A DNA stretch of 64,000 bases from Anaerolineales bacterium. Lineage in GTDB: Bacteria; Chloroflexota; Anaerolineae; Anaerolineales; Villigracilaceae. Positions 58,677 to 63,319 of this stretch are shown here, one piece after another. Position 1 is the first letter of the stretch. Each line of letters starts with the position of its first letter. Under the pieces are notes generated by a model. That model did no database searches, was not told where the DNA came from, and was given only the letters and a program-made list of their open reading frames with translations. The position numbers and the translations under genes are program-made. Location of the stretch: NCBI GenBank assembly GCA_024710905.1, contig JANJTV010000055.1:33146-97145 (forward strand), written 5' to 3'.

Positions 58677-58756
58677 ATCAATACCTCCAGTAAAGTGATA
58701 GGTGAAGTTTAACACCGGTTGTTCTTTTGGGGGATGAAAACCAGCCAGGTATTTTG

Positions 58757-58762
58757 TACAAT
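58757..58762 (+). promoter_or_regulatory. -10 box of leaderless promoter for the SH3-like lipoprotein
   Basis: TACAAT lies 6 nt before the ATG at 58769, with no ribosome-binding site. Confidence 0.55.
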
Positions 58763-58768
58763 AGTGAC

Positions 58769-59563
58769 ATGAAAAACATGCTACTTTCAACCTGGTTAAT
58801 CATTACCCTTATTTTAACGTCTTGCAACCTGCCCGTCAGACTGGTTCCCGCCCCTTCATCCCGTCCCAGTCCCGAGGCGGCCACTGCCACCGACTCCCCC
58901 CTGCCGACCTCCACGCCCGGTCCGTCTGCCACACTGACAGCCCTTCCCACCGAAACCGCCACTCTCACCCTGACAGCCACGGCCAGTAATACACCCGGAC
59001 CAACGGAAACCCCAACATTTACATTCCCGTCCGTTACAGTCAACCAACAGGCACACTGTCGTTACGGTCCGGCCAGGGCACACCTGCATGCCGCGGATCT
59101 ATATCCCGGCGATACAGGCACGGTACGCGGACGGTTTCGTTACAGTCAGTGGCTATATGTTAAATTCGACAAGTTGGATTATTTTTGCTGGGTAGCGCCA
59201 TCAGTGGTAACGGTCACAGGCGATGTCACCACCGTGCTGTACACAGAACCAAATCTGCCGGTGTATGGTGTCCGTTACGGCCCACCGGAAAATATCCGTG
59301 TCACTCGCGACGGCGACAAAGTCACCATTCGCTGGGATGTGGTGAATATGACGCTTGACCACGATCGGGGGTATTTCCTTGAAATGTTTGTTTGCCAGGG
59401 AGGTCGTTTAATTTGGTGGACATTCTCTTACCCGAACAAGGACAATACCAGCTATACAGTAACAGACGAAGCGGGTTGCGCGGCGCCTTCAAGCGGGAAG
59501 TTATATACCGTTGAAAAATACGGATATTCCAGCCCCGCTATTCTCGCCTGGCCACCGCCCTAA
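58769..59563 (+). CDS. Lipoprotein with T/P-rich linker and SH3-like plus fibronectin-like domains
   Basis: The protein has 264 residues. It has a signal peptide with a Cys lipobox (ILTSC), then a Thr/Pro/Ser-rich spacer of about 60 residues. An SH3-like segment follows (CRYGPARAHLHAADLYPGD, WLYVKFDKLDYFCWV) and a C-terminal beta domain (ENIRVTRDGDKVTIRWDVVN) that looks fibronectin-like. The layout is common among surface lipoproteins of Chloroflexota. It may bind cell-wall or surface material, which is inference. The next gene is the channel-receptor fusion, 84 nt downstream. Confidence 0.75.
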   Translation: MKNMLLSTWLIITLILTSCNLPVRLVPAPSSRPSPEAATATDSPLPTSTPGPSATLTALPTETATLTLTATASNTPGPTETPTFTFPSVTVNQQAHCRYGPARAHLHAADLYPGDTGTVRGRFRYSQWLYVKFDKLDYFCWVAPSVVTVTGDVTTVLYTEPNLPVYGVRYGPPENIRVTRDGDKVTIRWDVVNMTLDHDRGYFLEMFVCQGGRLIWWTFSYPNKDNTSYTVTDEAGCAAPSSGKLYTVEKYGYSSPAILAWPPP

Positions 59564-59647: not shown

Positions 59648-62600
59648 ATGAACAAGTTAAACAAAACTGCAAACATCCTTATTTTATTTACCTTGCTGGT
59701 CAGCCTCGTTTCTGCCTGCGCACCAACCAGCCACAACGCCGACCGGCTGGTGATTGCCGTGGTGGAACGCGATCCTGGCACGATGGCGCTTCCAGGAACA
59801 CAGTCGCTGTACTCAGGGGTGCGCCTGGCCGTAGATGAGATTAATTCCCGGGGGGGTATTAACGGGAGACTTGTGGATGTTGAAATTCATGCCGACAACG
59901 GCGACCCGGCCAAGGCTGCGCAAGTTGCCCGCACCATTATCAGCGGGCAGGCCCTGGCTGTCATCGGCCACGATAGGAGCGAGACATCCCATGCAGCAGC
60001 AGCGATTTATGACAGTGCCGGGCTGCCAATCATCAATGCTTCCCCGGCATCCGAAACGCTCATCCTGAATTGCCCGACCTACTTGAACATCAGCTACACT
60101 GCCGAAACCCAGGCCGCGTATATGGCCAACTACCTGGTAAAGGTTCAGAATATCACCCGCGCCAGCATTATTGCGGCAACAGATGAATACAGCCAGGCGC
60201 TGGCCACCCAATTCCGCAACACGTTCAAGGGGCTGGGCGGACGGTTGGCAACCCAGGAAACCATCCTGCTTGACCAACCGATTGGCGAACAGGTGGAGCA
60301 AATCGTGGCTGAGATTATTGCCCTGGACATTTCCGGCCAGAACCCAGGCACTTTGTACCTTGTTGCGCCGGACGAAGTGTCTGCCGAGGTGGTTTTGCAG
60401 CTGCGCCGCAAAGGCGTGGCGCTGCCAATCGCAGGTGCAAACCAACTCAATAGCACCGATTTTATTGAGGTGATGGGCGAGCAAAGCGAAGAAAACGCCC
60501 AGCCAGGCTTTTTCACCGATGGTATCCTGAGCACGCGCGGTGTGATTGGTGACAGCATTCAGGGTGATACCCGCATGTTGATTGACACATACGCCCGGCA
60601 GTATGGTGAGCACCCGGAAGATTCGGTATTGAACGCGTATGATGCAACCCTTGCCATCCTGGCAGCCTTACAGCGTACCTCGCTCGGCCAAACTGACCTG
60701 GCCGCAGACCGGGAGCTGGTGCGGCAGGGGCTGTTAAACCTGGGCACAAGCCAGAGCTTGTTACGGGGAGCAACCGGGAATCTTGTCTTTGGGCAAGACC
60801 GACATGCCATTCGCCCAGCGCGGATTGCAATTTACCAAAATGGTAACCTGGTCTCCGCCATGACTCAGTTTGAACCACTTGGAATTATGCCAATCAACGA
60901 CACCATTCGCCAAGGCCTTGAAACTGGCCGGATGATGACAGTGAACGGGGAGTATGTCAACGTGGTCAACGTGGTTTACACCGGCCTTGATTTAATTGAA
61001 GTCACCAGTGTTGACGTCAAGGCCTCCACATATGTTGTGGATTTTTATCTTTGGTTCCGTTATCGCAGCAATGTGCCCGAGGCCGGGACAGATCCGGAAA
61101 ATATCCTTTTTACAAACCTGGCGGCAGGGGAAAGTGTGACACTGGATACGCCGGTTTCTGAAGAATATATCGGCGACACCATCCTCCGCACCTACCGTGT
61201 GACAGCCACCTTTAAGAATGATTTCAACTTCCATGAGTACCCGTTTGACACCCAGCGCCTGATCGTCCAGATGCGCAACCAGACAGCCACGGCATCTGAA
61301 ATCCAGTATGTGGTTGATAAAGTTGGCATGCAATACAAAGACGAAGAAAGCCTGCTGGGTTACTGGAATACCAATAACTCCGCCTTCAGAACCCTCTTCG
61401 GCTGGCGACCCCAACTCGCCAGCGCCGAGCAAAGCCTGCTTTCCACCAACTCCACCCTCGGCAACCCACAAAACTTTAACCAGATTAACAGCACGGATTA
61501 TTCACTCTTCCGCGTGGTTGTGGAGTTGCAGCGCAGTTCCCTCGATTATATTGTCAAAAGCCTGCTGCCCTTGTTGATCACATTGATCCTGGCCTACATC
61601 ACATTTTTCCTGCCGCTGGGTCACTCTGAACGAATGGGAGTGGGCTCTACGGCCCTACTCACAACAGCCTTTTTCCACCTGACCCTGGCCGATTCCCTGC
61701 CTGAGATCGGCTATACCGTTGCCATGGAATATCTGTTTTACGCCTCCTACCTGATGTCTACATTGATTGTGCTCCTGGAAACCTGGAGCATTCGCCTGGA
61801 AAAAAGGATGGAAGACACCGAGGACAGCAACTTAAAGGATGTCCTGAACAAAAAACGAGAGCGACTGGGAGTGGCGGGAAAAGTTGTTTACCCCATCATC
61901 CTGGTAATAGCGCTGGCGTTCATGGTGCTGGTGTACGACAATCAGGTAAACCTGGCCCCGAGCGTTGAACATAAAATTGCTTATGTCGATAATCTCCTTC
62001 TGGCTGGCAGTCCGGGAGAAACAACCAGTTCCAGCAGCAGCGCTGAACAGAGCACCAGCGGTGATGTCACCGTACTGACCCTGACGACCTGGCGACCCGA
62101 GGACGATGCCAACATTCAAAAACTTGCTGCCGAGTTCCAGGCCTATGCTGCCGACCGTGGATATAACGTCACCCTGGAGCATGAGCCAATTATCGGCATT
62201 AATTACGACAGCATCCTGAACACCCAGTTCAACAAAAACACTGCCGCAGACCTGATCTATGTCCGCCCGTTTTCTGTCGATGGCCCGATTGCAAATCACT
62301 TACTGCCCTTGACAGCATTCGTCAGCAGCCAGGAGTTTGACGAAAACCGGATTGAACCCTGGCGCAACCAATTGGGTGAAATATATGGCATGCCGTTTGG
62401 TGGTGTGATCCAGGGTGTGTATTACAACAAGGACATCTTCGACCGGCTGGGGCTGAAAGAACCACAAACCTGGCAGGAATTCCTCGAAACCGCCCGGGTG
62501 TTAAAGGAAGCCGGGGTCATCCCGATAGCAAATACCTTGAAAGACAACCAGGACAGCGAAATGTTCCAGAGCCTGTCCATTAATTACATCCAGGGGCCTG

Positions 62601-63259
62601 AAGGGCGCAGCCTGCTCTCCAGCGGTGGATTAAACCTGTGCTTTAATGGCGCCCGTGTTACCGGGGCATTTAATGCAATTGCCGATTTACGCGAATTCCT
62701 ACCTGCGGATGCTGACGAAATGACCTCCGAAACCAGTAAAAGCCTGTTCCTCGACGGGCAGGCCGGTATGTTGTTCGGCGGTTCCTGGGATTTGACCACC
62801 TTCCAAAAAGCTAGCTTTAACTGGGGTGTCTTTGCCCCGCCCGCCCCAACCGGTATGGAAACCTTTATCATCCTTAACCCGGATGTGGCCATTGGTGTCA
62901 ACAAGAATTCTCCGCATCGCGAGGAATCCTTGCTGTTTATAGAGTGGCTGACCTCACAGCAAGCCGTTGATGCAGTTGCCATCTACCTGCCTGGCTTTTA
63001 CCCGCTCAGGAATCTGTCACCGAGCAATATTGCCCGACAACAGGAGACGGATCCGTTCCTGGGGATCTCAAATAAGTACAGCTCAGATGCACGCTGGGTT
63101 TACATTGACATCTCCAGCCAGATTCCCAGGGCCGATGAAATTGTCCGTTATGCCTTGCGCGACATCTTCAGGGGCGAGATCACCGGCCGCCAAGCGGCAG
63201 ATCGCCTGCAAGCTGGGCTGGCCGAGTGGTATCGGCCCGCCCAGGAATGCCTTCGGTAG
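59648..63259 (+). CDS. LivJ-type binding domain / pentameric ligand-gated ion channel / MalE-type binding domain fusion
   Basis: The 1203-residue lipoprotein has lipobox LVSAC. Residues about 32-430 form a branched-chain-amino-acid-type binding domain (GVRLAVDEINSRGGINGR; VIGHDRSETSHAA). About 440-630 is a pLGIC extracellular domain with a Pro-loop (YPFDTQ, Pro near 532) and no Cys loop. Four helices follow: M1 (about 634-656), M2 (about 663-685, preceded by Glu-Arg at 661-662), M3 (about 689-713) and M4 (about 746-765). A Ser-rich linker leads to a type-1 sugar-binding domain (about 806-1203) with MPFGGVIQGVYYN and GGSWDLTTF. Four helices place both binding domains outside. It is probably a ligand-controlled channel with two sensors. 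GC and codon use fit the neighbours. Confidence 0.88.
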   Translation: MNKLNKTANILILFTLLVSLVSACAPTSHNADRLVIAVVERDPGTMALPGTQSLYSGVRLAVDEINSRGGINGRLVDVEIHADNGDPAKAAQVARTIISGQALAVIGHDRSETSHAAAAIYDSAGLPIINASPASETLILNCPTYLNISYTAETQAAYMANYLVKVQNITRASIIAATDEYSQALATQFRNTFKGLGGRLATQETILLDQPIGEQVEQIVAEIIALDISGQNPGTLYLVAPDEVSAEVVLQLRRKGVALPIAGANQLNSTDFIEVMGEQSEENAQPGFFTDGILSTRGVIGDSIQGDTRMLIDTYARQYGEHPEDSVLNAYDATLAILAALQRTSLGQTDLAADRELVRQGLLNLGTSQSLLRGATGNLVFGQDRHAIRPARIAIYQNGNLVSAMTQFEPLGIMPINDTIRQGLETGRMMTVNGEYVNVVNVVYTGLDLIEVTSVDVKASTYVVDFYLWFRYRSNVPEAGTDPENILFTNLAAGESVTLDTPVSEEYIGDTILRTYRVTATFKNDFNFHEYPFDTQRLIVQMRNQTATASEIQYVVDKVGMQYKDEESLLGYWNTNNSAFRTLFGWRPQLASAEQSLLSTNSTLGNPQNFNQINSTDYSLFRVVVELQRSSLDYIVKSLLPLLITLILAYITFFLPLGHSERMGVGSTALLTTAFFHLTLADSLPEIGYTVAMEYLFYASYLMSTLIVLLETWSIRLEKRMEDTEDSNLKDVLNKKRERLGVAGKVVYPIILVIALAFMVLVYDNQVNLAPSVEHKIAYVDNLLLAGSPGETTSSSSSAEQSTSGDVTVLTLTTWRPEDDANIQKLAAEFQAYAADRGYNVTLEHEPIIGINYDSILNTQFNKNTAADLIYVRPFSVDGPIANHLLPLTAFVSSQEFDENRIEPWRNQLGEIYGMPFGGVIQGVYYNKDIFDRLGLKEPQTWQEFLETARVLKEAGVIPIANTLKDNQDSEMFQSLSINYIQGPEGRSLLSSGGLNLCFNGARVTGAFNAIADLREFLPADADEMTSETSKSLFLDGQAGMLFGGSWDLTTFQKASFNWGVFAPPAPTGMETFIILNPDVAIGVNKNSPHREESLLFIEWLTSQQAVDAVAIYLPGFYPLRNLSPSNIARQQETDPFLGISNKYSSDARWVYIDISSQIPRADEIVRYALRDIFRGEITGRQAADRLQAGLAEWYRPAQECLR

Positions 63260-63274
63260 CAGTTTACCGCCAAT

Positions 63275-63319
63275 GAAACGGGAGCACGCCCACGGGTGGC
63301 CTGCTCCCGTTTCGTTTTT
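63275..63319 (+). terminator. Rho-independent terminator of the channel fusion gene
   Basis: GAAACGGGAGCA (63275-63286) and TGCTCCCGTTTC (63302-63313) form a 12-bp stem with a 15-nt loop, followed by GTTTTTC. Confidence 0.85.

Follow-up and report, generated by a model that had tools for sequence, protein, structure and literature searches.

What opens a bacterial pentameric ligand-gated ion channel (pLGIC), and can a binding domain attached behind the last helix of its pore take part in this control? The proteins of this type are the receptors for acetylcholine, γ-aminobutyric acid (GABA), glycine and serotonin, and the natural stimuli of the prokaryotic ones are, to our knowledge, largely open. 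The question is raised by a gene at 59648..63259 on the forward strand of the window, by which we mean the whole 64,000-nucleotide stretch analyzed here, from an Anaerolineales bacterium (GenBank assembly GCA_024710905.1, contig JANJTV010000055.1, positions 33,146 to 97,145). An open-reading-frame check found one uninterrupted frame, without internal stop, that encodes 1203 aa followed by a stop codon. A first-pass annotation, made from the sequence alone, had described its product as a lipoprotein in which a pLGIC is fused to two different solute-binding domains. This central observation is confirmed by Pfam, AlphaFold2 models and structure comparison, according to which a single chain holds a LivJ-type domain, then the full pLGIC core, then a domain of the MalE/NagB2 type.

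The module calls rest on Pfam hidden Markov models (HMMs), on AlphaFold2 models (residues 25-1203 for the whole chain) and on structure comparison, which together support the proposed identities and order of the domains; all coordinates below are on the forward strand. The chain starts with a lipoprotein signal (residues 1-24; 59648..59719) whose lipobox, VSAC, ends with C24, and since a lipobox-like motif is present in 95 of 101 aligned homologues, the lipoprotein assignment is borne out. The N-terminal LivJ-type domain (residues 31-404; 59738..60859) is recognized by both the Peripla_BP_6 HMM and its periplasmic binding protein (PBP) type I fold. The extracellular domain of the channel (residues ~427-628; 60926..61531) is a β-sandwich in the core model, with structure matches to pLGICs from core-model residue ~22, and carries a Pro-loop motif, YPFD (residues 531-534; 61238..61249), in which a Pro is followed by an acid: Pro532 occurs in all 101 rows, and position 534 is Asp in 91 and Glu in 10. 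Predicted helices correspond to M1 (residues 631-653; 61538..61606), the pore-lining M2 (residues 659-687; 61622..61708) and M3 (residues 691-723; 61718..61816), while the M3-M4 stretch and M4 are modeled as a single helix (residues 727-763; 61826..61936). The models thus display a pLGIC fold, an extracellular β-sandwich with four helices, and Neur_chan_memb matches residues 640-710 at 32.9 bits (cut-off 28.1). After a post-M4 linker (residues 769-806; 61952..62065), the C-terminal domain (residues 807-1203; 62066..63256) is identified by the SBP_bac_1 HMM and by its fold; MalE-type binding proteins are, we assume, to be counted as PBP type II. The search of the translated frame suggested in the first-pass annotation held for Peripla_BP_6, Neur_chan_memb and SBP_bac_1, and stayed below the cut-off for the HMM of the pLGIC ligand-binding domain. 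No MCP-N or Cache domain precedes the core among the seven Pfam families listed up to an E value of 1. Because the N terminus is outside and four helices are predicted, the C-terminal domain would also lie outside the cell, as had been proposed.

This architecture is not confined to the window. Of 7991 candidates scored in a protein search that used residues 430-1203 as query, 116 matched; 108 of these were aligned and the remainder (P0013, P0034, P0060, P0084, P0090 and P0107-P0109), cut at one end, were left out. The 101 rows mentioned above have the three-module order, the window sharing 34-68% identity with the other 100, and the remaining seven (P0110-P0116) are without a C-terminal domain; source names of relatives include "Chloroflexi bacterium" and "Anaerolineales bacterium." A second search, started from P0110, produced 159 matches, and the best 120, which were listed, comprise many cyanobacterial-type two-module proteins of ~760 aa together with three-module proteins (hereafter triples) of ~1200 aa, recognized by Pfam, on the cyanobacterial branch: P0250, P0252, P0276 (source name "Cyanobacteriota bacterium"), P0281, P0284, P0288 and P0289. 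With alignment-derived profiles, all three modules were found in 112 of the 289 collected proteins, 105 of them Chloroflexota-type and seven from the cyanobacterial branch. The taxonomic survey that the first-pass annotation had advised thus reveals, at the level of sequence, a conserved family that spans two phyla.

The pore is strongly conserved in these proteins. Among the segments compared, M2 comes first, with a mean majority frequency of 0.91 (0.89 for M3), and this degree of conservation argues that the channel part is under selection. Positions in M2 are given in what we take to be the customary prime numbering, and the counts refer to the 109 distinct Chloroflexota-type cores followed by a C-terminal domain, N-truncated ones included. 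Glu at -1' (E661 in the window) and Arg at 0' (R662) are present in 109/109, Leu at 9' in 107/109, Phe at 13' in 108/109 and Asp at 20' in 79/109. The Glu-Arg pair at the inner end of M2 pointed out earlier is borne out in these cores, while P0106 has Ala at -1'; the cation selectivity proposed below depends on E-1', presumably its determinant. The Leu at 9', expected for a hydrophobic gate, is L671 in the window. R0' is absent from M2 of the cyanobacterial relatives, in which the columns near -1' are unsure because the M1-M2 loop is shorter. The three-module gene is the sole pLGIC match in its genome, which fits a homopentamer. The pore helix also contains a histidine at 15' (H677), found in 109/109 Chloroflexota-type and in 8/8 and 110/110 cyanobacterial-type cores, which might make gating pH-dependent.

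What might the two binding domains recognize? LivJ-type proteins hold the amino-acid head group by a Ser, a Thr and an acid. We set these anchor columns by LivJ 4gnr in an alignment of 220 N-terminal domains, in which a few genes are present twice and from which 15 proteins having two matched stretches, as well as short matches, were omitted. The window reads S111/A134/N265, and all three anchors are found in 1/91 Chloroflexota-type triples vs. 100/107 cyanobacterial-type two-module proteins. The anchors are also complete in 2/2 and 2/5 members of two cyanobacterial triple groups, in 3/6 Anaerolineae two-module proteins and in P0106 (1/1), and in none of five proteins of the set P0111-P0116 or of three C-truncated Chloroflexota proteins, counted apart from the triples. 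The cyanobacterial triple clade of five has the anchor Ser in 5/5 and the acid in 4/5. These anchors bear on amino-acid binding and not on membership of the fold family. Since the full set is lost in the window and in 90/91 Chloroflexota-type triples, the N-terminal domain probably does not bind a plain amino acid in the customary manner, and the amino-acid-like ligand first suggested for it loses ground. As for the C-terminal domain, 114-115 of the 115 fused Chloroflexota-type copies and 60-64 of the 64 stand-alone relatives retain W815, R816, D819, Y853, W1047 and D1079, which we take to line the pocket by analogy with MalE. Residues in common with the stand-alone, ABC-type sugar-binding relatives make the C-terminal site look kept and favor a sugar-like ligand, a proposal that comes out somewhat strengthened. 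A separate feature of this domain is the pair C998 and C1201, kept in 115/115 and 114/115 fused Chloroflexota-type copies, respectively, and in 36/64 stand-alone relatives each, which is possibly an extracellular disulfide.

With confidence and doubt about equally balanced, we favor a homopentameric cation-selective channel whose opening would be set by extracellular nutrients and in which M4 is the predicted target of the C-terminal domain. Five copies would assemble into the homopentamer, the N-terminal domain being placed on top of the extracellular domain, in the manner of other fused pLGICs, and the C-terminal domain, on its ~38-residue linker, flanking the channel on the outer side of the membrane. 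A ligand closing the N-terminal domain would shift the extracellular domain and so bias gating. Closure of the C-terminal clamshell by a ligand, which may be sugar-like, would bias it as well, by altering the pull on, or the contact with, the M4 end and the extracellular domain. Gating would then be dual, by two ligands, and the output would be cation influx and depolarization. In other pLGICs, M4 is reported to be important for function and able to relay information to the gate (PMC9116227, PMC8119899).

Several observations weigh against this scheme. The ligand-binding-domain HMM of pLGICs scores below its cut-off, and P0106 is without E-1'. Sugar control is not general, for the five cyanobacterial triples have largely lost the sugar-site residues, with D819, Y853, W1047 and D1079 changed in every one of them and W815 in four. 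The C-terminal domain is perhaps too loosely tied to drive M4, because the linker is long and variable (28-41 residues, median 38, across 101 rows), poorly conserved (mean majority frequency 0.33) and modeled partly with low confidence. Finally, the three-module gene is rare and patchy, being found in 7/152 genomes of the host's taxonomic family and in 3/400 of the phylum sample.

A bolder version, which we put forward tentatively and regard as on the unlikely side, is a two-clamshell receptor (type I plus type II) on a nicotinic-type pore, serving as a coincidence sensor for a pair of nutrients, the second of which would act through M4 as its lever, and with pockets that later lapsed by clade. 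The Chloroflexota-type clade would then have kept the sugar site and dropped the amino-acid anchors, and the cyanobacterial clade of five would have kept much of the amino-acid site and lost the sugar site; P0106 and the pair P0250/P0252 would have kept both pockets.

The main rival to M4 acting as a lever is a loose collector role, an idea of Tasneem and colleagues, in which the binding domains merely gather ligand near the channel and gating occurs at the classical site between extracellular domains. Such a role was proposed for PBP-type partners of bacterial pLGICs in the portions of that paper available (PMC549065), and a long variable linker suits it. Fused domains with kept pocket residues fit a direct role equally well or better, however, and we regard the collector as possible, if on the unlikely side. 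Alternatively, one or both binding domains could now be structural, the channel being gated otherwise, for example by protons, calcium or amines at the classical site. The loss of the N-terminal anchors in 90/91 Chloroflexota-type triples speaks for this, as does that of the sugar-site residues in the five cyanobacterial triples, but the C-terminal pocket-type residues preserved in 114-115/115 Chloroflexota-type copies speak against it; we consider this explanation rather improbable. We give little credence to the notion that the C-terminal domain still serves an ATP-binding cassette (ABC) importer, with the channel as a mere anchor. The closest stand-alone relatives do include ABC-linked binding proteins such as L090, which adjoins an ABC permease gene and a PIG-L deacetylase gene, and the genome has 30 permease-domain (BPD_transp_1) matches. 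On this contig, however, the only such matches are as far as ~90 kb from the gene, though the contig ends just 744 bases past it, and a mere anchor would have no need of a complete, conserved pore. The possibility that separate genes were joined by an assembly error or a frameshift has nothing for it beyond the oddity of the fusion and the public names of relatives ("ABC transporter substrate-binding protein," "extracellular solute-binding protein"), and is refuted by independent homologues with the same three modules on many separate contigs (112/289 proteins) and by a frame without internal stop, so that we consider its probability negligible.

Returning to the three-module family, how is it distributed and how might it have arisen? 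In the host's taxonomic family, 31/152 genomes match at E ≤ 1e-45, and, by the listed spans, 7 of these have a three-module gene (G000, G001, G047, G057, G103, G175 and G185), 5 a gene ending after the core (G011, G032, G044, G119 and G120) and 19 the sugar-binding part only; the match in G185 starts at residue 228 and that in G001 stops at 1173, both on short contigs. Three-module genes, again by span, occur in 3/396 genomes of the class sample, 6/400 of the order sample and 3/400 of the phylum sample, which overlap, and two further matches in the order sample cover the sugar-binding part alone. Among the best 80 of 478 confirmed loci in a genome-contig scan, only the sugar-binding part was matched, except in L004, a fragment of a three-module gene. 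A tree of all solute-binding-protein (SBP) domains (95 rows, short search) groups the cyanobacterial and P0106 domains with stand-alone ones, apart from the Chloroflexota-type. When four long rows and 19 others, mostly near-duplicates, are removed (72 rows), a branch (support 94, unstarred) has all 32 fused SBPs on the same side. In the core tree (69 rows, with every fourth cyanobacterial two-module row sampled), the 22 Chloroflexota triples form one clade (98/94) and the 8 cyanobacterial ones lie in two places. The cyanobacterial triples may have gained the C-terminal domain independently; it is also possible that the domain was gained once, then lost in places.

Variations on the architecture were also seen. 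In 14/101 rows (e.g., P0004), an insert of 115-147 residues follows window residue 167, and as it shares 25-37% identity with the segment after it (best BLASTP pieces, E 2.8e-4 to 4.4e-15), it resembles a partial tandem duplication of the N-terminal binding domain. P0106 ("Chloroflexi bacterium"; 1652 aa) has two SBP_bac_1 stretches (best match 1286-1568), the second sugar-binding domain (residues ~1267-1630) following the first to yield a four-module protein. Frames with tandem sugar-binding domains of the C-terminal subfamily, in which no channel core was found, carry three copies in L164 (3076-6924, G401) and L165 (G346), and two in L166 (G453) and L149 (G469). This subfamily of binding domains seems to undergo fusion readily.

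Around the gene, a terminator-like hairpin with a U run lies directly 3' (63272..63319, forward strand; -30 kcal/mol, z -5.89 vs. shuffles), although it is absent from the listing of a simple terminator scan; a promoter scan found none on the forward strand directly 5'. Upstream are a divergent nitroreductase gene and, separated by 84 bases, a gene for a 278-aa lipoprotein (58727-59563) with a well-conserved C-terminal half and no Pfam match at E 0.01. Six of the seven family genomes that have the fusion (the window's, G001, G047, G057, G103 and G185) carry a copy no more than ~1 kb from it, downstream in G185; in G175 none is near, on a contig spanning only ~820 bases before and 170 after the gene. 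From this adjacency, the chromosomal location is at least stable, and a functional link is possible. A control speaks against a role as dedicated partner: 150/152 family genomes match the lipoprotein at E ≤ 1e-5, close or distant, with or without the fusion. A histone-deacetylase-like gene is upstream in G001, G047, G057 and G103, and not in the window. Chemotaxis, proposed in 2004 as a channel output, is counted against by the 0 MCPsignal matches in the genome, the same search being positive in 7/14 known control genomes. The two-module channel genes of G011 and G044 (L101 3511-8128; L103 6026-10539, complement) directly follow a SulP-type permease gene with STAS and cyclic-nucleotide-binding domains, and a frame of similar size occupies the same place in G032 (L102 3698-8200).

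The three-module family places a sugar-type binding domain at the M4 end of a pLGIC, which makes testable whether M4 can serve as a ligand-driven control lever, and it offers candidate natural ligands for bacterial pLGICs. Where such proteins have public names, the ones seen denote ABC-transporter binding proteins, so that the channels easily escape notice. N-terminal PBP-I fusions to bacterial pLGICs (ART-LGICs) were described in 2004, as were stand-alone type-II binding-protein genes beside pLGIC genes, in the portions of PMC549065 consulted. Jaiteh et al. (PMC4795631), in an excerpt, excluded the terminal regions and asked for such architectures to be studied. None of the papers listed in searches of the open-licence literature, which comprises few subscription papers or preprints and in part only excerpts, was seen to describe a binding domain fused behind M4 or a pLGIC with two different binding domains; the novelty claimed in the first-pass annotation stands within it, and a report elsewhere is possible.

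How, then, does the protein compare with known systems? Like the ART-LGICs, it has a PBP-I domain before the core, and two-module relatives (~760 aa) exist here too; unlike them, it has a domain after M4, which the available passages of PMC549065 describe for none of their proteins. Compared with two-module PBP-I relatives, the Chloroflexota-type triples have lost the amino-acid anchors and, unlike the cyanobacterial relatives, carry R0' in M2. The pairs of ART-LGIC and neighboring PBP-II genes in those passages also link a type-II binding protein to a pLGIC, but as separate genes, whereas the window's protein, one chain joined after M4, looks like their covalent form. DeCLIC (PMC9897478, PMC12664993) is likewise a pLGIC with an extra N-terminal ligand-sensing region, its N-terminal domains being discussed in the parts consulted; these, however, are NTD1/NTD2 lobes rather than PBPs, and those parts do not mention a C-terminal domain. 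The N-terminal region also differs, as a Peripla_BP_6 domain, from those of pLGICs with MCP-N or Cache domains. The C-terminal domain has the fold and conserved side chains of L090 and other ABC sugar-binding proteins that belong to its SBP_bac_1 subfamily but stand alone; these, in contrast, are separate, secreted and encoded beside permease genes, without a channel. A parallel in design, on another pore, is with glutamate receptors: those of the N-methyl-D-aspartate type also carry PBP-I and PBP-II domains on one channel chain, as passages of PMC549065 recount, but with an unrelated pore inserted into the PBP-II domain, whereas here a pLGIC pore is followed, after M4, by the PBP-II-type domain.

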